This document shows positions 20,344 through 28,040 of a stretch of DNA of 41,613 nt, piece by piece. The position numbers and the translations under genes are program-made. The stretch comes from an uncultured Eubacteriales bacterium (GTDB lineage Bacteria > Bacillota > Clostridia > Christensenellales > UBA1242), in assembly GCA_949841245.1 (NCBI GenBank), contig CATKYT010000009.1:1-41613 (forward strand), given 5' to 3'. A model generated the notes under the pieces. It had not been told where the DNA came from. It made no database searches and saw only the letters and a list, made by a program, of their open reading frames with translations. How positions within the stretch are numbered: position 1 is the first letter of the stretch; the number at the start of each line of letters is the position of its first letter.

Positions 20344-21147
20344 ATGTTTGGTGCAATTGTTGGAGATATTGTTGGCTCAATTTACGAGTTTAAGAACATA
20401 AAAAGAAAAGATTTTCGATTGTTTGACCAATATTGTTTTTTTACAGATGATAGCGTTATGACTTTTGCTGTGGCTGAAGCTTTAAGAAAGACTCAAGATA
20501 AAAATTTTAAGAATTTGGACAAACAAACAATAAAAGAAATGCAGAAATTTGGGGAACTCTATCCACACGCAAGTTATGGTTCCTCATTTAAAAGTTGGCT
20601 AAAAGAGAAAAATCCAAAGCCTTATAATTCTTATGGAAATGGTGCGGCTATGAGGGTTAGCCCTGTGGCATATTTGGCAAATAATCTTGACGAAGTGAAA
20701 AAACTTTCAAAAGAGGTGACTGCAGTTTCTCATAATCATGATGAAGGAATTAAAGGTGCAGAAGCAACTACTGTTGCAATTTGGTTAGCCTTAAACAATC
20801 GTAGTAAAGATGAAATCAAGAAACATATTGAAGATAATTATTATAAGCTTGATTTTGACTATGAAGAGTTGAAAGAAAATTATTGTTTCAACGAAACGTG
20901 TCAAGATACTGTTCCACAAGCAATTTATTGTTTTCTTATAAGTAATGACTTTGAAGATTGTTTAAGAACAAGTGTTTCAATTGGTGGCGATACAGACACT
21001 TTGTGTGCAATTTCTTGCGCAATTGCCGAAGCTTATTATGGAATTCCAGAAAAAATCCACGACTCAGCGCTGTCTTATTTAGATAAGCGGTTATTAAAAC
21101 TATACAACAAACATTATAGGCGAAGTACTAAATTAACAGTTGTTTGA
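20344..21147 (+). CDS. ADP-ribosylglycohydrolase family protein
   Basis: Predicted to remove ADP-ribose from modified proteins or nucleic acid, or to hydrolyse related compounds. Bi-metal (Mg) ligand motifs are present: GDIVGS (7-12), FTDDSVM (33-39; D35, D36) and GGDTDT (214-219). 267 residues, typical of the DraG/ARH-like class. GGAAGGA lies before the ATG. It might reverse the action of a toxin or regulate a metabolic enzyme; no ADP-ribosyltransferase is in view. Its stop codon lies inside a TTTGATTT/AAATCAAA hairpin. Confidence 0.88.
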   Translation: MFGAIVGDIVGSIYEFKNIKRKDFRLFDQYCFFTDDSVMTFAVAEALRKTQDKNFKNLDKQTIKEMQKFGELYPHASYGSSFKSWLKEKNPKPYNSYGNGAAMRVSPVAYLANNLDEVKKLSKEVTAVSHNHDEGIKGAEATTVAIWLALNNRSKDEIKKHIEDNYYKLDFDYEELKENYCFNETCQDTVPQAIYCFLISNDFEDCLRTSVSIGGDTDTLCAISCAIAEAYYGIPEKIHDSALSYLDKRLLKLYNKHYRRSTKLTVV

Positions 21148-21381
21148 TTTTCGCGAAATCAAAAGTTTGTTGCGAAATCAAATTTTGATTAGTTTGATTT
21201 ATTTTGATTTTTAATCAAAAAATTAGGTGTCGCATTATCAAACGGAAAAAAACAAAATCGCAAATTCAAAAGCAGACATTATAGAGTGCAAGCCCAATAA
21301 ACCTATTATAAAAGTTATATTTATATAACAAGTTGAATTTAAAATTAAAATTTGACGAAAATAATTGAGCAATTTGTATTT

Positions 21382-21405
21382 AAGCAGGTTTCCCCTGCTT
21401 TTTTC
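21382..21405 (+). terminator. Terminator of the ADP-ribosylglycohydrolase unit
   Basis: AGCAGG, short TTTC loop, CCTGCT, T-run; the only GC-rich stem in this AT-rich gap. Confidence 0.8.
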
Positions 21406-21501
21406 TTTGCATATTATAATATATAAAATATATAAATATAGCAAAAATGGAAACATATTTCTAAAATAATAGAAATATAGTTCTATTTGTTTATAAATTG
21501 T

Positions 21502-21529
21502 AAAAAAACAAGCCAAAATTCTGACTTGT
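21502..21529 (-). terminator. Terminator of the DGR operon
   Basis: Minus strand ACAAGTC, 8-nt loop, GGCTTGT (one G-U pair), followed by T7. It lies 34 nt after the 72-residue gene. Confidence 0.8.
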
Positions 21530-21562
21530 CTTTTAAAATAATGATGATAAAATTATAGATTT

Positions 21563-21781
21563 TTAGTCTTTTATTTCTTTTAGTTGTTTGACAATTGCTT
21601 TAATTTCTTCTTGATTGTCTAAAAATCGTTGTGCAAGGTCAACAAAAATGATGTCGTTGGGATCAATCTTTTGGTCTTTCAATTCTTCCAATTCTTTGCA
21701 AAGTAACTTATATTCTTTTGTTTTAAGATCAAGATCCATTGTCAGCCCAACAAGCTTGGTTTGATTTAAGTTTATTTTCAT
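21563..21781 (-). CDS. 72-residue coiled-coil-like protein coupled to the DGR target
   Basis: Its ATG overlaps the TGA of the DGR target (ATGA), so translation is coupled. Charged helical segments (residues 18-38 and 53-72, rich in K, E, L) suggest a small helical hairpin or coiled coil. No family is recognised. As the last gene of the DGR operon it could be a chaperone or partner of the target protein; that is inference from coupling only. Confidence 0.7.
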   Translation of the reverse strand: MKINLNQTKLVGLTMDLDLKTKEYKLLCKELEELKDQKIDPNDIIFVDLAQRFLDNQEEIKAIVKQLKEIKD

Positions 21782-24561
21782 TTCTCAATTCCTCCCTGTT
21801 TCAATATTTGTTGACGGTCATAAAGGATATGTTGCTCGCTTTCCGCATCTTGAAATGAATATTCACTTGGCACGCTTAAATTATGCGTTGCCTTTTTAAA
21901 TCTCTCACATTGTGCTTTAAGTCTGTTATATCCCATTCCAACATTAACTTGCTGAATTGGCTTATTTGGATGTTGAGCATCCCACTCTTTTACAAAGCCC
22001 ATCGTGCCACGCATAAGAGCATCAAAAATTAAATCTCTCTCATGCTCTTTGTGCTTTTGTGCGTCAGATGAAACTGTATATCTGCCGCTGTTATTTTCAT
22101 ATTCGCGATATTTTTGATTAAGTTCAAAATCATTGAAAACCGCATAGCCTTGCTCTGCATTGACATACATTGTGCCTTTGGCAATGATTTCACCCTTACT
22201 GTCTCTTACCACAAGATTTTGAACATCTTCTGCAACCACACTTGACTGTGCAATATATTTTCCATAAAAACTGCTGGTAATTGTTCCACAACAGCTTGCA
22301 TAAAGCCCCATGATTGCATTTCGTGGATCGTGTTTTGAAAGCATTTCAAATGTGAATTGTTTTGCATAAAGTTCATCAAGAAGTGTCTTTGAATCCTTCA
22401 AAATACTTTCAGTTTCACTTTTGATTTGCTCAATACTTTCCAAAATTGTCATTTCACGAAAAGGCTTGCCCAAAATATGCTCCCCTACTCCCTTTTCTTT
22501 TGCCTTTTTTCTTAAAGCCACTCCTTGCTGAAATGTTTGTTGTGACAAACCTTTGCCGCCAAAAACTTCGGCAATATCTTGCGTTTCGCTTGTCACTCCA
22601 ACATATTTTTCCGAAGTGTAAAATTTTTTCAAAGCATCTTCCCAAGAAAGAGTTGTTGGCTTGCCTTGTTCATTCAATGTTGTTCTGAAAGTCTTTGCTC
22701 TGTCAAAATTGGTCATAACTTTCACAAACATTCCAGGGTGTGATTTGTTTAAGTCAAGAAGAAGTCCCAAGTTTAAAAGTTTCTTTTTGTCTCCAACTTG
22801 TGAAATAAATTTTAAAAATTCTTGATTTGGTTTTGTTTCAAGTGGAAGACTGTCAAAAAGTCCATGGAAGTCACCTATTTTGAGCATCTCAGATTTCAAA
22901 ATTTGTGAAAAAGCACTTGTTGCTTTTTGAGCAAGTAAAACTTCTGTTTCTTTCCCATTTTTGTCCAACACTTTATCTTTTGAAAAACATCCAAGTGCAA
23001 GCATAAATTTGTAGTAATCAAATTTTTCTTCCATTGTCAATTGCCCATATCTCTCATTTTTTGTGAGATCAACACCATCTTCACTTTTCAAGAAACGAAC
23101 ATCACACAAGTCTTGAAAATTTTCAAGCATTCCTTTATCAATCAGCTGTTTCACAAACACATATGGAAATGAAATTTTATTTTTGTTCAAAGATTCAGCC
23201 AACTTATTCAAGATTTCAAGATTAAAATTTCCAAAAATAAGGCCATAATCAAAGTCTTTGAATGTTTTTGCCAGTTTGCCAAGTTCAACCAAGTTTTCTA
23301 ATTCTCCTTTTGGTTTCTCTCTTGACAAAATGGTTGAAGTTTGTCCTTTAAGTTTGTATGCAAACTTAAAGTCACAACCCGCAAAAGCGTTCTTCCCAAC
23401 TTTTTTTACACCATCATGAACAATAATCTTTTCTATTCCCACACAGCCTGCAAACGCATAATCTGCAATTTCTTTTTCATATTCTGGGATAATATATTCT
23501 CGTGTTGGTTCACGCGTTAAATCAAGTGCTTGATACAAAAATCCGCTTTTTGAAAAGTCCCATTTATATGGTGTATCAAAATCTGGATTTCCGTCCAATT
23601 CATCACTTCTTGCAGAATTTAAAAAGCATCTTTGAAGACTGCTTTGCCACATAGAGCAATTTCTGTGGTCATAATCTGGATAGAATGGCAAGCCAGACAA
23701 AACAATTTCTTCGCTGACAAGGTCAATTGTTGTATCCGCACCAAAGAATTTACCCTTTGGATTAACGCTTTTTGGCATGCGGTTCCAGTTTTTGATTTCA
23801 AAGGTAACTGGCTCAACTTCCACCCAAACTGGTGTTCCAGTTTCCGGCACAACACTTCCATCTGCAAATTTATACTCTCTATTTTTCCATGCAATGTTTC
23901 GGACATATTTTTTGCCATTATATTCAAATTCAGGATTTTGTTTTGACAAAAAATCTTTATTATATTCTCTTTGTCCATTGCTTGTAAAAAGCCTTCCAGT
24001 GCAAGTAAGTCCAGTTTGCAAAGTTCCGCCATTAAACAAGTTTTCAAGCGTTTGTTGAAGCTCGTTGCTTGCTTTTGTCTTTGGATACTCACCAATTTTT
24101 AAAAAGTGTTTCTCTTTTCCATTATTTGTTGTTTTTGTCTCAAAAATTTCGCTCGCTGACGCGCTGCGCGCGGAGATTAAAGATTGAAGATTAAGGGACA
24201 AAGCGGGAACGGAGCCGAGAACATATCTGTTAACAGAGGAACAGTACCACGAGCCGTAAGAGTGGACAGCCCTTACATAATGAGCAGCGTAAGCCGAACG
24301 CGACCAAAATACTCCTGTGAGTTTGCCATTTTCTGCTTTCCTGCCAGAACTTTGATAAGCATAACTTAAAAGTGCAAAGTCAGTACATGATTTTCTTCTT
24401 TCTATGTCATCTGAAAAAGTTTCTTCCAATTCTTCCATAGAAAGCAAACTTACTGTATCAGTTGTGTCAAATTTCTTGTCAGCCTTTTTTCCATGTCTAT
24501 CTGTGTTGCTATTTTTTCTTGCCACAGCCATTGACATATAATTAATCTTTTCACTTGCCAT
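21778..24561 (-). CDS. DGR target protein with N-terminal variable CLec-like region
   Basis: A 927-residue protein with no signal peptide. Residues about 36-125 match the C-terminal half of the DUF6273/C-type-lectin-like fold (VSLLSMEEL ... FWSRSA ... LGSVPALSLNL) and contain the VR (86-121). Residues about 152-320 look like the N-terminal half of the same domain (FLKIGEYPKT ... NGKKYVR ... WVEVEPVTFEI ... SSLQRCFLN), so the order seems swapped. Residues about 356-397 are BspA-type LRR_5 repeats. Residues 400-740 are helical and unrecognised; 750-915 (CCGTITSSFYG onward) show a beta-beta-beta-alpha-beta pattern, faintly GNAT-like. CATGG context with GGAG upstream supports the start. Binding partner unknown. 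Confidence 0.88.
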   Translation of the reverse strand: MASEKINYMSMAVARKNSNTDRHGKKADKKFDTTDTVSLLSMEELEETFSDDIERRKSCTDFALLSYAYQSSGRKAENGKLTGVFWSRSAYAAHYVRAVHSYGSWYCSSVNRYVLGSVPALSLNLQSLISARSASASEIFETKTTNNGKEKHFLKIGEYPKTKASNELQQTLENLFNGGTLQTGLTCTGRLFTSNGQREYNKDFLSKQNPEFEYNGKKYVRNIAWKNREYKFADGSVVPETGTPVWVEVEPVTFEIKNWNRMPKSVNPKGKFFGADTTIDLVSEEIVLSGLPFYPDYDHRNCSMWQSSLQRCFLNSARSDELDGNPDFDTPYKWDFSKSGFLYQALDLTREPTREYIIPEYEKEIADYAFAGCVGIEKIIVHDGVKKVGKNAFAGCDFKFAYKLKGQTSTILSREKPKGELENLVELGKLAKTFKDFDYGLIFGNFNLEILNKLAESLNKNKISFPYVFVKQLIDKGMLENFQDLCDVRFLKSEDGVDLTKNERYGQLTMEEKFDYYKFMLALGCFSKDKVLDKNGKETEVLLAQKATSAFSQILKSEMLKIGDFHGLFDSLPLETKPNQEFLKFISQVGDKKKLLNLGLLLDLNKSHPGMFVKVMTNFDRAKTFRTTLNEQGKPTTLSWEDALKKFYTSEKYVGVTSETQDIAEVFGGKGLSQQTFQQGVALRKKAKEKGVGEHILGKPFREMTILESIEQIKSETESILKDSKTLLDELYAKQFTFEMLSKHDPRNAIMGLYASCCGTITSSFYGKYIAQSSVVAEDVQNLVVRDSKGEIIAKGTMYVNAEQGYAVFNDFELNQKYREYENNSGRYTVSSDAQKHKEHERDLIFDALMRGTMGFVKEWDAQHPNKPIQQVNVGMGYNRLKAQCERFKKATHNLSVPSEYSFQDAESEQHILYDRQQILKQGGIEK
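24151..24176 (-). promoter_or_regulatory. GC-rich imperfect inverted repeat just downstream of the VR
   Basis: About 75 percent G+C in an AT-rich gene: CGCG-CTG-CGCG core (24160-24170) flanked by CTC/GAG arms. It lies 22 nt past the 3' end of the VR in coding sense. In the Bordetella phage DGR a hairpin at this place assists target recognition; the same role here is inference. Confidence 0.45.
24199..24307 (-). repeat. DGR variable repeat (VR)
   Basis: 109-bp copy of the TR at 25872-25980, aligned without gaps. 23 positions differ; in coding sense 22 of them are at template adenines and one is G to T. The substitutions change 16 codons between residues 91 and 120, mostly template AAY codons; two more are silent. 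The GC-rich 3' end (24199-24220) is identical except at one position and would correspond to the initiation of mutagenic homing element. Confidence 0.97.
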
Positions 24562-24640
24562 GTTTTTCTCCTTTGCATCAAAATTTATATATTTATTATA
24601 ACATTATTTTTTCAAAAAGTAAATAGCCAACGCTTAAAAA

Positions 24641-25660
24641 TCATTTTTTAAATCTTTTTATATATTTAAACAACAAATTTATGGCATTTGAATGACATAA
24701 ATGGGCGTTATAAGCATTTATACGAACATCAACATATTTATCATCAACAAGATTTTGTGTTTTAAATATATATAAATGTTTAATTTTACGCCTTAATCTA
24801 AGTTTTGCTTGAGACCTTAACAGCCGAATAATTTTACCATTTTCATTTAAAATTGTTCTAAATCCCAAAAAATCAATTCCATTTGAAAGTTTGCCAATCT
24901 GTGTTTTGGCATTAAGCTCAAGATAAAGTTTTTCGGAGCAATAGTTTTTTATTTCATTTTTGCAATAATCAAGATATTCTTTGTCTTTATGCAATAAAAT
25001 CATATCGTCCATATAGCGAACATAATATTTTATCCTTAGTTTCTCCTTTATAAAATGGTCAAGACCGTTGAGATAAAACAATGCAAACCATTGACTTGTT
25101 TGGTTGCCTATTGGAAGTCCGACACCTGTTTCTGCATTTCTGCTTTGCAAAAGAATATCAACAAACCACAAATCTTCTTCATCCAAAACTTTTGCAAGTT
25201 GTTCTCTTAAAATTTCTTGGCTTATATTTTGAAAATACTTTTTTATATCACATTTCAAAAAATATCCTAAATTATTTTTGTTTAAATTATAAAACTTACG
25301 CAAAAACAACTTTAATCTGTCAAGTCCAAACAATGTGCCTTTGTTTTTTCTACAAGCCACATTGTCAGGAACTAATTTTTTCTCAAGTTTAGGTTCCAAA
25401 ACATTCATGCAAAAAGCCATCAAAACAACTCTGTCTTTATAAGACAGAGCTTCAATGTTTCGCTTTTTTGGCTCATAAACATAAAATTGTTTGTATTTTC
25501 CAATTTTGTATGTTTTGTTCAAAAGCTTTTTTGACATTTCAGTCAAATTTTGACTTAAATTTATTTCAAAAGAGATTGTTTCTTTTTTATGCTGTTTTGA
25601 AAGCCTGCATTTTTTGTGGGCAGTAAGCAACTTTTCAAATGTGAAAGCATCTTTAAGCAT
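24641..25660 (-). CDS. DGR reverse transcriptase
   Basis: Copies the TR RNA with adenine-specific infidelity to generate cDNA that replaces the VR. The 339-residue protein has RT motif A LKCDIKKYF (135-143, D138), the DGR-type motif 4 GLPIGNQTSQ (181-190), and the catalytic YMDD (216-219), followed by LGFRT and a basic thumb (RSQAKLRLRRKIKHL). A longer frame runs back to 25909 through the TR, but AAGGAG sits 7 nt before the ATG at 25660 and the extension is not protein-like. It lies 79 nt upstream of the target gene on the same strand. Confidence 0.97.
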   Translation of the reverse strand: MLKDAFTFEKLLTAHKKCRLSKQHKKETISFEINLSQNLTEMSKKLLNKTYKIGKYKQFYVYEPKKRNIEALSYKDRVVLMAFCMNVLEPKLEKKLVPDNVACRKNKGTLFGLDRLKLFLRKFYNLNKNNLGYFLKCDIKKYFQNISQEILREQLAKVLDEEDLWFVDILLQSRNAETGVGLPIGNQTSQWFALFYLNGLDHFIKEKLRIKYYVRYMDDMILLHKDKEYLDYCKNEIKNYCSEKLYLELNAKTQIGKLSNGIDFLGFRTILNENGKIIRLLRSQAKLRLRRKIKHLYIFKTQNLVDDKYVDVRINAYNAHLCHSNAINLLFKYIKRFKK

Positions 25661-25871
25661 ACAATCTCCTTTTAATTTTAAATATGCCACCACCTGCGTT
25701 GACAGAAAACTTCCAAAGCTGACAGCATTGGTTATTATGGTGGCAATTTTCTTCCAATTCTTCTTGAGAATTTGAAAAAGATTGAGATTCCTTTGCCTTA
25801 AACACACATTTGTTCCACTTGGACACAAACACTTCTCGTCAGTTATCAAGCATTTTGCTTGTTTTATAAGG
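25661..25871 (-). ncRNA. Structured spacer between TR and RT (part of the DGR template RNA)
   Basis: On the minus strand a 7-bp helix TGCCACC/GGTGGCA closes a 47-nt loop (25745-25685), and an interrupted hairpin built of TTTGT/ACAAA and TCC/GGA lies near 25800-25828. In studied DGRs sequence downstream of TR is part of the RNA needed for priming and binding RT-Avd. A specific role here is inferred from position and pairing. Confidence 0.55.
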
Positions 25872-25982
25872 CAAATCGGGAACGGAGCCGAGATTATATT
25901 TTTTAACATTGTTATAGTTCCACGAGCCGTCAGAGTTTACATTTCTTACATTATTTTCATCGTTAGCCGAACGCGACCAAAA
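25872..25982 (-). repeat. DGR template repeat (TR)
   Basis: Non-coding template for VR diversification. Read in the VR frame it encodes a CLec-like core rich in AAY (Asn) codons: SRSANDENNVRN, then GSWNYNNVKKYN, then LGSVPDL. AAY codons can be changed at two adenines to give many residues but never a stop, the usual design of DGR templates. 35 adenines in 109 nt (coding sense). Homology to the VR ends abruptly at both edges. Confidence 0.97.
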
Positions 25983-26147
25983 ACAACTAGGCTCAAAATA
26001 ATCTCATCTTAATTAAAGCGTCACCGCTATAATCCATCATAAAAAGCATCGCTTTTGCTCATTTTTGCTTTTTAAAAAGCAAAAAGTTTCGCTTTATCGC
26101 TTGCATTTTTCTCTTTCCCAAAAATGTCATGCATTTTTGGGCTGACC
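25983..26147 (-). ncRNA. Hairpin-rich segment between avd and TR
   Basis: A perfect 24-nt palindrome at 26062-26085 and a perfect 10-bp hairpin with a 5-nt loop at 26117-26141 (CCCAAAAATG/CATTTTTGGG), then a short GCGTCACCGC hairpin near 26018. No T-run follows on the minus strand, so these are more likely RNA-processing or structural elements at the 5' side of the template RNA than terminators. Confidence 0.55.
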
Positions 26148-26717
26148 TTAAGACTTTTTGCCAAGTCTATCGGCGTCACTTTTTCTCCATGCAACAAGCA
26201 GATTTATGCAATCCGCAACTTGCAGTGAAATTTGTTCATATTGTTTCTTCAAAATACACTGGCTTTCAAATGATAAAAAAGCCATATATGCAAGCAGTTT
26301 CAATTTCAAATAAGTGGCGTGTTGACAATCTTTTCTGTTTTCAATGTTTTTGGCATTATTCATTTGCAAAGAGTTTGCTTCAATCAATTTTTCAAGAGCA
26401 TCCAGACAATAATTTTGCAATCTGTTGACAAACACAGCACGGAAGCGCTTAGGCGATTTTTCAGTGACAGTGATGACATATGCCGCCAATTTTTTTGTTT
26501 TTGTGATAACCAACAATTCGCTTGAGCCTTGCCTTATTTTCAAAGGTTCATCGATTTCTGGAATTTCATTTTTGATGGCAGCAGTTTCTTTATATTTTTT
26601 ATTTTCTCCGCGTGCCACACCTTTTGCAGTTGCAACTCTGTCATCATAGATTTCTTTGTTGCCAGCCACTTTTGGAATTGTCAGTTGGACATCAATAGGA
26701 TTTCTTCTTTTGTTCAT
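26148..26717 (-). CDS. avd: DGR accessory variability determinant (Avd)
   Basis: Helical partner of the RT; the family forms a pentameric basic barrel that binds RT and template RNA. Residues about 68-185 fit the Avd four-helix pattern: LLVITKTKKLAAYVITVTEKSPKRFR, then VNRLQNYCLDALEKLIEAN, then LSFESQCILKKQYEQIS and LVAWRKSDADR. The 60-residue N-terminal extension makes it longer (189) than the usual 110-130. AAAGGAAAG precedes the ATG. First gene of the DGR operon. Confidence 0.9.
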   Translation of the reverse strand: MNKRRNPIDVQLTIPKVAGNKEIYDDRVATAKGVARGENKKYKETAAIKNEIPEIDEPLKIRQGSSELLVITKTKKLAAYVITVTEKSPKRFRAVFVNRLQNYCLDALEKLIEANSLQMNNAKNIENRKDCQHATYLKLKLLAYMAFLSFESQCILKKQYEQISLQVADCINLLVAWRKSDADRLGKKS

Positions 26718-26903
26718 ATACTTTCCTTTTATATTTCAGAAAGAAAAAAAACTTCTGAATTTCTTCAAAAAGTCTTGTTAAAGCGTTTTATTTGCTCTCA
26801 CAAAGCGGAACAAAAGTTCGTATTGACGCTTTGTGACCACATGGGCAGTGGAAACTACTCCCTTTTTATGACCTTATTATACATCACATTTTTCAAATGT
26901 CAA
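26718..26903 (-). promoter_or_regulatory. Consensus promoter and structured 150-nt leader of the DGR operon
   Basis: TTGACA (26903-26898), 16-bp spacer, TATAAT (26881-26876): both boxes perfect. The leader folds well: CACAAAGCG/CGCTTTGTG 9-bp stem (26835-26827 with 26807-26799) enclosing a GAAC-TTTT-GTTC hairpin; an upstream GGG...CCC hairpin (26862-26843); and TTCAGAA/TTCTGAA with eight T in its loop just before the avd ribosome-binding site. A 14-codon frame starts near 26842 without a good ribosome-binding site. Confidence 0.7.
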
Positions 26904-27013
26904 GACCTTTTTCATAAAAAGTTGGAGATTGAGATAACTTTACTCGCAACCACATACAGCCAACACCAAATTGGATTTCCCAGCGGTTCGGGCACATAAT
27001 CACTTGTCGCACC
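26904..27013. other. GC-enriched gene-free segment ahead of a terminator
   Basis: About 45-50 percent G+C from 26935 to 27012 against roughly 30 percent around it, with no believable gene. Frames crossing it are short, lack start signals and match nothing recognised. It may be a structured RNA or the remnant of a gene. The rest of the gap to 27077 holds the terminator and a promoter. Confidence 0.4.
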
Positions 27014-27039
27014 AAAAAAGAGTTGATTAAACTCTTTTT
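27014..27039. terminator. Strong bidirectional terminator with no adjacent gene end
   Basis: AAAAAAGAGTT, GATT loop, AACTCTTTTTT. No coding gene ends here on either strand, so it probably closes an unannotated plus-strand transcript or shields the DGR. Confidence 0.75.
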
Positions 27040-27043
27040 TATT

Positions 27044-27071
27044 TTGCAATAAAATTTCATTATGATATAAT
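27044..27071 (+). promoter_or_regulatory. Promoter of the C45-like gene, leaderless type
   Basis: TTGCAA, 16-bp spacer, perfect TATAAT, then 6 nt to the ATG at 27078; no Shine-Dalgarno. Confidence 0.65.
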
Positions 27072-27077
27072 TTTTAC

Positions 27078-28040
27078 ATGAAAATCAAAGTTTTAAATGG
27101 CACTCATTTTGAAATTAACAAAAAAATTTCAATTTATTTTAAAAAATATTTCAACAAAGCAAACATTAAAATTATTGAAAGCGAAAAAGTGCAAAAAATT
27201 ATCAATATTTTGGAAAGTGAACATCCTGTTGTTTTGGAAGAACTTAAAGGTAGAGCCAAAGGTTTTGACATTTCTGTTTCAGAATTTATCAGCCTAACTT
27301 CTTACGAACTTTCAGAATTGAATGAAGACAGATGCTCAGACATTTATGTCTGCGAAAAAGAATTAAAAGGCATCTACCATAATGAAGATGGCAGTGATGA
27401 AATAGTGCCAATTTTGTGCAGTTATGATGATGAAGCAATCTTTGATTTAAGTTGTTACTCTGCCCTGCATGGAACAACTTTTTCCGCTACAAAAAATTTA
27501 ATGTTTTCCATAAATTACATATACAACAAAAATCTTAATTTAAATGCCGATTTACCCACTTGGATTTTTACTAGACTTCTTCTTTCTTGCAAGAATTTTA
27601 AAGAAGTGAAAAAGACTTTAAAAAAATATTCAATCTGGGGTTCAGTTTCCATAAACCTGCTTGATGTAAAAACAAACAAATTGTTTTCAATAGAAAAACA
27701 CAATAACATAAACAGTATAAAAGAAATTAAAAACACCTATTTCAAAACAAACACATTCATTCACAAAGACATGCAAAAGTTTTGTGAAGTTCCAAAAGAA
27801 ATTAATACATCCCAAACAAGGTTTAACAAAATTGCAGAACTTTTGCAAACAAAAAGTTTAACATATCAGCAAATCATTCTTTATAATAATGGAAACGATT
27901 ATGACAGTGTAAAAGTTACTGGGCAAAACAGAAACAACTGCAAAACACAAGTAACAGTATTCTTTTGCAACGATAGAATTGAAATCATCAAAGAAAATGA
28001 AACTCAAATATTTTTAATAAAAAATATTTTCAGCCAATAA
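27078..28040 (+). CDS. Peptidase C45 / acyl-CoA:6-APA acyltransferase-like protein
   Basis: Ntn-hydrolase-like protein of 320 residues. The family order is visible: ELKGRAKGFDISVSEFISLTSYEL (56-78), then the putative self-processing cysteine C86 in RCSDIYV, then HNEDGS (101-106, in place of the usual QNxDW), an HGTTFS segment, and ARLLL-type helix text with a late FSIEKH. Relatives process themselves before the cysteine and act on amide bonds. No signal peptide, so cytoplasmic. The substrate is unknown. The mRNA appears leaderless. Confidence 0.7.
   Translation: MKIKVLNGTHFEINKKISIYFKKYFNKANIKIIESEKVQKIINILESEHPVVLEELKGRAKGFDISVSEFISLTSYELSELNEDRCSDIYVCEKELKGIYHNEDGSDEIVPILCSYDDEAIFDLSCYSALHGTTFSATKNLMFSINYIYNKNLNLNADLPTWIFTRLLLSCKNFKEVKKTLKKYSIWGSVSINLLDVKTNKLFSIEKHNNINSIKEIKNTYFKTNTFIHKDMQKFCEVPKEINTSQTRFNKIAELLQTKSLTYQQIILYNNGNDYDSVKVTGQNRNNCKTQVTVFFCNDRIEIIKENETQIFLIKNIFSQ

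Follow-up and report, generated by a model that had tools for sequence, protein, structure and literature searches.

A clade of diversity-generating retroelements in gut Clostridia with an N-terminal variable repeat, an apparently permuted lectin-like target domain and an in-frame hairpin

Introduction

Diversity-generating retroelements (DGRs) rewrite a variable repeat (VR) in a target gene from a template repeat (TR) with the help of a reverse transcriptase (RT). A large survey places VRs typically at target C-termini and gives as the reason that only there can homing signals sit outside coding sequence (PMC8144416). Efficient homing in BPP-1 requires a hairpin directly behind the VR, and known phage stems have 7–10 bp and GRNA loops and lie 4–34 bp from the VR (PMC3240598). 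The DGR described here lies on contig CATKYT010000009.1 of an uncultured Eubacteriales bacterium (assembly GCA_949841245.1); "the window" denotes the whole stretch of DNA analysed, 41,613 nucleotides long. A sequence-only reading of this DNA, made by a model, had claimed a complete DGR with adenine-directed mutagenesis among housekeeping genes. The N-terminal VR, circular permutation, in-frame hairpin, structured spacer RNA and effector fusion reported here go beyond it. What is new is the combination, common to a clade of cassettes, of a scaffold that appears permuted, a VR near the protein's N-terminus and a hairpin within the reading frame.

The repeats and the diversified domain

The features on which this account turns are the following.

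25872..25982, minus strand: TR, from the TR/VR alignment.
24199..24309, minus strand: VR, target residues 85–121, from the TR/VR alignment.
21778..24561, minus strand: diversified target protein, 927 aa, an open reading frame (ORF).
24178..24540, minus strand: target residues 8–128, putative C-half of a DUF6273/C-type-lectin-like domain, with the VR, placed first (relatives' PF19789 matches; C-half hidden Markov model, HMM).
23524..24126, minus strand: target residues 146–346, putative N-half of a DUF6273-like domain, placed second (N-half HMM, which matches before the C-half in canonical proteins).

The element is a genuine diversity-generating retroelement. In coding sense, on the minus strand, TR (25872–25980) and VR (24199–24307) align without gaps over 109 nt and form the longest direct repeat detected in 20500–28000. 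Template adenines are altered in the VR at 22 of 35 positions (10 to C, 7 to T, 5 to G), against one of 74 non-adenine bases (G to T; Fisher p = 4.8e-13). This recount agrees with the adenine bias claimed in the sequence-only reading, and together with the phrog_1423 RT, the phrog_3206 Avd and the 8ub7 match described below it upholds the complete DGR. The comparison of 22/35 with 1/74 is the only untrimmed one; TR/VR edges elsewhere were trimmed by a score that penalises non-adenine mismatches. At the 3' end the TR reads GAT and the VR GCT, and the same A-to-C difference recurs in 9 of 12 related cassettes; it is thus more likely a fixed difference of the initiation-of-mutagenic-homing (IMH) type than a product of mutagenesis, and since it is probably fixed, 21/34 is the fairer adenine count. 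Of 35 codons, 17 can alter the amino acid, with about 1e17 protein variants in principle, and three codons can turn into stops. A second VR elsewhere in the genome was considered and rejected: besides the TR and VR themselves, the best of six TR matches has E 0.028.

The VR occupies residues 85–121 of 927 and hence not the C-terminal position that is typical of DGRs, though not defining. The target starts about 80 nt past the end of the RT ORF, so that no N-half fits upstream. In relatives, the VR segment matches PF19789 from position 53–58 to 161–171 of 172, over the cut-off in L136 (E 1e-9), L139 (1.5e-6) and L200 (2.8e-6) and under it in L156 (0.0023) and L173 (0.0042), where L numbers denote loci, G numbers genomes and G000 the window's own genome. 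Canonical DGR targets of the same order (L144, L141) match PF19789 from position 1/3 to 171/172 in sequence. No DUF6273 match over both halves in order was found in the permuted targets; relatives match from 53–58 on only, with the N-half downstream.

Half-domain HMMs built from residues 8–128 (C-half) and 146–346 (N-half) were run on 248 ORFs in DUF6273-bearing and related loci at an independent E-value (iE) below 0.01. Both halves are present in 19 ORFs, as N then C in 15 and as C then N in four more members of the family; the 15 amount to 14 distinct ORFs (L258 and L262 hold the same protein), and L235 has the pair twice. The clearest canonical case is L262, with the N-half at iE 2.3e-35 followed by the C-half at 2.6e-8. 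Because the DGR targets show C then N where canonical ORFs show N then C, the diversified domain is, judged from these sequence matches, a circularly permuted DUF6273/C-type-lectin-like domain with its C-half first and its N-half second. The swap of halves brings the VR near the protein's front, not its usual back. An AF2 model of residues 1–400 (15 sequences) forms one confident unit, with a predicted local distance difference test (pLDDT) of 80.9 and a predicted TM-score (pTM) of 0.85. No permuted DGR target was found in the literature searched, which consisted mostly of open papers with few subscription or bioRxiv ones.

The in-frame hairpin

24160..24172, minus strand: in-frame DNA hairpin CGCGC-GCA-GCGCG, in the codons of ISARSAS, 26 nt after the VR.

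As the C-half with the VR opens the protein, a cis-acting homing site would fall inside the reading frame. This hairpin is the only 5-bp GC-rich stem with a GNA loop on either strand of the window, and the other 11 cassettes have a similar stem 26–32 nt past their VR. Such a stem (5 bp, GC-rich, GNA loop) stands at the site in 12 of 12 cassettes with a TR/VR pair, in five of seven loci with an RT only and in five of 40 loci without RT, against a background of one in 7384 other 230-nt segments of the same loci. A locus counts as "without RT" when the sequence fetched around it, reaching no more than about 9 kb to either side, gave no RT match, and the label does not extend to the whole genome; one of the 59 related loci (L231) was left out of the count for want of a usable match, and the target start was extrapolated, so that cut or distant loci may have the site outside the searched stretch.

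In an alignment of 22 hairpin sequences (21 distinct), 96.2% of cells pair, compared with 0–73% in slid versions. The rows come from loci where the site could be recognised, without L201, L204 and L210; siteless loci are excluded. The covariation score was matched by 0 of 500 shuffles, and there are two compensated pairs, one synonymous on both sides (L180, L182 and L194) and one in L205 that turns SARSAS into STRSVS with pairing kept. From the peptide and local codon use alone, at least 5 bp of stem would be expected in 1.4–3.0% of draws. The hairpin is present, associated with the DGR machinery and covarying, and it accompanies the fixed A/C difference at the VR end. An IMH and a hairpin behind the VR are typical of DGRs, though not universal. 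By analogy with phage DGRs, we infer that it may serve in homing. A separate arrangement is seen in L224 (6856–9762), where three tandem copies of the permuted domain occur with no RT match in the stretch, and two of the copies have a 6-bp stem, CCGCGC-TGA-GCGCGG, at the hairpin position.

Related cassettes and VR variation

A profile scan of GTDB contigs yielded 59 loci, most of them titled as Clostridia or other Bacillota metagenome-assembled genomes, with one Prevotella (L220) and one Bacteroidia locus (L231). An RT match is present in 18 of these, and a TR/VR pair adjoins a colinear target in 11, which gives 12 cassettes with the window. All 12 share one layout of TR, RT, target and N-terminal VR together with an Avd match, which a contig end truncates in L209 and which falls in two frames in L205. 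Pair-like matches that were low-complexity, palindromic or tandem-copy were dropped in L208, L222 and L224 and, in an earlier set, in L140, L150, L152, L154, L165–L168 and L172. In an even phylum sample of 398 genomes, a match at E 1e-10 was found only in the window's own genome.

In a tree of 47 rows, 13 loci with a permuted target have RTs that group as a single clade (support 100/99); the tree includes 29 of 80 viral loci and, of the RT-only loci, L197 alone, and the long branches of L143 and L149 meet in it. Among these rows the sister of the clade is the RT of L033, an IMG/VR contig, whose target has the C-half (iE 2.6e-6) and then the N-half (3.5e-20) and an N-terminal VR. Its C-terminal part resembles MoxR-type targets, without a Pfam match, and a DUF2201 protein comes after it. 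Since the L033 target is also permuted, the permutation is older than the clade and may have passed through mobile DNA; with the closest RT on an IMG/VR contig, a viral link in the wider family is possible.

Other relatives depart from the complete layout. A broken or partial RT stands beside a permuted target in L198, L199, L201, L207, L225 and L226; L199 and L226 have a damaged hairpin, and the other four retain theirs. The contig of L197 (Candidatus Caccovivens) gave a full-length RT match and neither Avd nor TR. L149 (9780–11307; G042, same genus) holds a second kind of DGR, with a target of 953 aa, an internal VR and the TR on the strand opposite the VR. L175 (G044) and L176 (G100) hold related targets with intact hairpins, and neither genome has an RT match at E 1e-20; between the two, the VR-like stretch has differences at 27 of 120 bases, the sequence ahead of it at 5 of 240, that behind it at 25 of 840 and the C-terminal part at 200 of 1620, and the RT was perhaps lost recently.

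The sequence-only reading had predicted that VR differences would be confined to template-adenine sites, and this holds between close relatives; the comparisons cover cassettes of related genomes, not strains of the window's species. Pairwise among L210, L209 and L215, 15/37, 19/36 and 18/36 template-adenine sites of the VR differ, as against 0/71, 0/71 and 0/75 other sites, and the TRs are identical. The 60 nt past the VR differ at 0–1 positions and other parts by up to 11%, while L210 and L215 show 0 differences in 647 nt upstream; being partly identical and partly divergent, these cassettes are mosaic. For the pairs among L200, L202 and L204 the figures are 17/38, 25/40 and 26/40 at template-adenine sites and 2/70, 2/68 and 2/68 at other VR sites, with 1–4 differences in 108 TR bases. 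The VRs of L182 (9233–9342) and L194 (9234–9342) contain an in-frame TAG that the TR also encodes (an unmutated adenine), and the TRs of L180 and L205 hold TAA codons that are altered in the VR. The VR alleles of L182, L194 and L215 look switched off until rewritten.

Reverse transcriptase, Avd and spacer RNA

Read along the minus strand, the cassette runs avd, TR, spacer, RT, target and small ORF.

26148..26717, minus strand: Avd-like accessory protein of 189 aa, extended N-terminally by about 60 aa (phrog_3206).
25661..25871, minus strand: structured TR–RT spacer RNA, 211 nt (RNAalifold).
24641..25660, minus strand: DGR-type RT with YMDD and GLPIGNQTSQ, start Met84 inferred (profiles, phmmer, tree).

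The RT's best profile is phrog_1423, "Reverse transcriptase" (E 3.1e-104), and its best PDB sequence by phmmer is 8ub7, "Reverse transcriptase" (E 1.6e-38), which we take to be a DGR RT; a group II maturase trails at 3.1e-10. Among NCBIfam models a group II RT scores best, with 93.7 bits, which is well short of its cut-off of 300. A group II intron or retron RT was rejected on the phrog_1423 match and on the much better match to 8ub7 than to group II or retron RTs, and in the tree, which was built without group II or retron RTs, the RT groups with RTs that have their own TR/VR pairs. The Avd matches phrog_3206, "Avd protein of DGR", over residues 62–186 (E 3.6e-17); the match to NCBIfam Avd has E 1e-9 and that to Pfam bAvd E 4e-4, each under its cut-off. 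The protein is up to 90% identical to the Avd of related cassettes.

The listed RT ORF opens at 25909, inside the TR. Several RT homologues align only from residues 83–86, and a few others still align across 25661–25871. For the spacer, the RNAalifold consensus of 10 of the 12 cassettes (L204 and L215 left out) has 50 pairs, of which 25 show, in one sequence or more, a change of both partners that preserves pairing, counted without a shuffle control. Structured DGR RNA is known from BPP-1, and the spacer fold fits; the spacer has no Rfam family (best E 0.14, under the gathering score). Because the region is a covarying RNA and homologues begin at 83–86, residues 1–83 of the listed ORF were rejected as coding, and the true RT start is probably Met84 (25660).

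Effector module, surroundings and proposed function

23371..23493, minus strand: target residues 357–397, a BspA-type LRR_5 segment.
21802..22359, minus strand: target residues ~735–920, a GNAT-fold domain, putative effector.
21563..21781, minus strand: small partner protein, 72 aa, overlapping the target stop (tblastn).

The target's C-terminal module has a structural match to GNAT domains. The small partner gene has tblastn matches (E 2.3e-6 or better) in 15 related loci, where they follow the same C-terminal module at a distance of no more than about 100 nt. In other relatives the C-terminal part is a MoxR-like AAA domain (AAA_5 E 8.5e-6 in L200), and the partner gene matches DUF2201_N (3e-30) and VWA-like DUF2201 (E 0.0014 in L200, under the cut-off; 3.2e-10 in L205). 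No MoxR AAA plus vWA partner was found among the window genes checked. The target has no strongly hydrophobic stretch: by hydropathy alone, with no signal-peptide program, its highest 19-residue value is 1.16.

The host is a gut bacterium with a genome of about 1.0 Mb in 35 contigs, 98.5% complete. The claim of housekeeping surroundings is true of the neighbours checked, which include a SIS/glutamine amidotransferase protein, a methyltransferase, Ala racemase, PALP, a FakA-like kinase, a RecD2-type helicase, POR and a Cys-type tRNA synthetase.

In the mechanism that we propose, RT and Avd would copy the TR–spacer RNA with errors at adenines, as in known DGRs, and mutated cDNA would replace the VR at a site within the gene marked by the IMH-like VR end and the hairpin, a step for which the evidence above is partial. 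The C-half with the VR would form the N-terminus, the N-half would follow, and the remainder would be a replaceable effector, namely the LRR segment and GNAT-fold module here and a MoxR-like AAA with a DUF2201/vWA-like partner gene in relatives. Variants would act as cytoplasmic binders with about 17 variable positions, and binding would trigger the C-terminal effector. The most likely job of the target is thus that of a diversified cytoplasmic sensor-effector, as proposed for DGR-linked conflict systems. We put the whole explanation (host-encoded DGR, permuted domain, in-frame homing hairpin and sensor-effector) at a probability of roughly 0.8. A stronger statement, that this clade of host DGRs diversifies a permuted lectin domain opening the protein and leaving room for any effector behind it, that the homing site has shifted into the ORF, where the hairpin dictates amino acids, and that the products are antibody-like cytoplasmic GNAT or AAA sensors, has somewhat better than even odds in our judgement.

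CGG frame breaks in relatives

A further feature was seen in some relatives. CGG stands at +1 frame breaks in L180, L181, L182, L183, L186, L189 and L194 and in 400 kb of G598 (L280–L299); frame 0 soon stops there, and the frame reached by skipping C (GGN) stays open. Deep in ORFs of G598, 29 of 45 CGG codons are at breaks, six continue in frame and 10 behave otherwise, and other codons there break at 0/154 (CGT), 5/75 (CGA), 14/225 (AGG) and 3/97 (CCG). CGG breaks number 0/38 in G002 and 0/13 in G000. The target gene break reads Leu-CGG-N-AAATATCA in seven of seven loci, with Gly at that place in seven of 12 unbroken homologues. No Arg tRNA for CGG appeared in a tRNA scan of the G598 stretches, which make up a quarter of that genome. 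The G598 lineage looks like a case of genome-wide +1 frameshifting or four-base reading at CGG.

Weighing the explanations

Several observations count against the proposed explanation. The window's own domain, VR segment included, has no Pfam (PF19789) match, so that the DUF6273 link goes through relatives, and the canonical DGR targets L141, L144, L146, L147 and L149 missed the two-half threshold in the 248-ORF set. Foldseek with the permuted domain gave no match under 1e-3 in the PDB. In BFVD, DUF6273 phage proteins at ranks 2–3 align over 104–113 columns at 3.0–3.3 Å (probability 0.99–1.00, E 0.02–0.03), and the top-ranked one (E 1.8e-3) covers 287 columns at 22 Å; a permuted fold is beyond what a sequential alignment can fit as a whole, so a partial match is expected, though it is no proof of permutation. 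Seven of 14 canonical-order targets examined have 315–562 coding residues after the VR, which means that a VR can be internal without permutation; on these targets, the notion that a VR must always be terminal was rejected. The hairpin is short (5 bp with a 3-nt loop, as against 7–10 bp and 4 nt in known phage examples; PMC3240598), it is kept in the five loci without RT mentioned above, of which L174 and L203 are cut by contig ends, and it is lost in two of the seven RT-only loci. Two of five shuffle measures are not extreme, with both-side-change pairs as high in 12/500 and further pair types in 285/500. The hairpin is not a general DGR feature in this material: a stem of at least 5 bp with at least 3 G+C follows four of 14 canonical or viral VRs. 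No such stem was found after the internal VRs of canonical targets L141 and L144 or viral L034–L037; a 5-bp stem follows the internal VR of L149 at 11 nt, and the C-terminal VR of L146 is followed at 22 nt by a 7-bp stem with a GACA loop. This patchiness implies that the hairpin marks this clade and follows no general rule. The target N-domain is interrupted in the assembly in four of 12 cassettes, by a TAG in the VR of L182 and L194, a shift of frame in that of L215 or a stop in the N-half of L204.

Circular permutations usually arise via duplication and truncation, and the want of a DUF6273 match in the window protein itself would suit an ordinary DGR target whose N-half was lost or misannotated, with a truncated domain and an unrelated one mistaken for a permutation. 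This is quite improbable: the second part matches the canonical N-half, which in L262 (iE 2.3e-35) stands directly before the C-half, the same order recurs in 12 cassettes and on the IMG/VR contig L033, only about 80 nt separate RT and target, and the AF2 model is one confident unit. The hairpin, in turn, might be a by-product of the peptide ISARSAS with no part in homing. That peptide is conserved and the stem has only 5 bp; L175, L176 and L196 keep it without an RT and without being cut by a contig end, and the different stem of RT-less L224 is seen in two of its three copies. We nevertheless consider a by-product unlikely, as few draws give such a stem (1.4–3.0%), compensation is synonymous in L180, L182 and L194 and keeps the pair through two amino acid changes in L205, and the stem is absent in 35 of 40 loci without RT, counts that are not independent because the rows are related.

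A recently silenced fossil in the window's genome would accord with the broken or partial RTs of several relatives and the interrupted targets of four of 12 cassettes. The chance of a fossil appears slim, since all components in the window (RT, Avd and target as well as TR and spacer RNA) are open and complete and the VR is nearly unaltered at non-adenine sites (1/74), as recent homing would leave it. An extracellular location is common for LRR_5/BspA segments, and one could take the target for a surface adhesin, like most cellular DGR targets; the lack of a strongly hydrophobic stretch (maximum 1.16 over 19 residues) speaks against this, and C-terminal GNAT-fold and AAA domains belong to kinds usually found in the cytoplasm. 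Most cellular target clusters in the global survey do have an N-terminal membrane anchor or signal peptide (PMC8144416), and a surface role is still unlikely on balance. A host-encoded DGR that diversifies a permuted, probably cytoplasmic sensor-effector fits the evidence best.

Comparison with known systems

This clade departs from the C-terminal-VR pattern in that its homing signal appears to lie inside the ORF, where it would constrain the protein. A permuted scaffold that takes C-terminal effectors would be useful as a diversifiable binder, and small-genome gut Clostridia would join the bacteria with DGR-diversified, probably intracellular sensor-effector proteins.

The Faecalibacterium prophage DUF6273 DGRs (L141 and L144 here) share with the window an RT, a TR/VR adenine bias and a diversified DUF6273 domain; as described there, their VR lies at the DUF6273 C-terminus with the halves in normal order, whereas the window's domain appears permuted, with the VR near the protein N-terminus (PMC11792537). 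In BPP-1, too, the VR is followed within a few tens of nt by a GC-rich inverted repeat, but stems there and in other phages have 7–10 bp and a 4-nt GRNA loop, and that of the window has 5 bp and a 3-nt GNA loop and lies in the ORF, nearly 800 codons before the target end (PMC3240598). The accounts of MoxR/STAND conflict systems describe a diversified C-type-lectin domain tied to a MoxR-like AAA and vWA, a proposed sensor as here; in those systems the lectin domain is C-terminal, with MoxR, vWA and effector spread over several proteins, whereas here it would be N-terminal and fused to an AAA domain in relatives or a GNAT-fold domain in the window (PMC10907252, PMC7159879).

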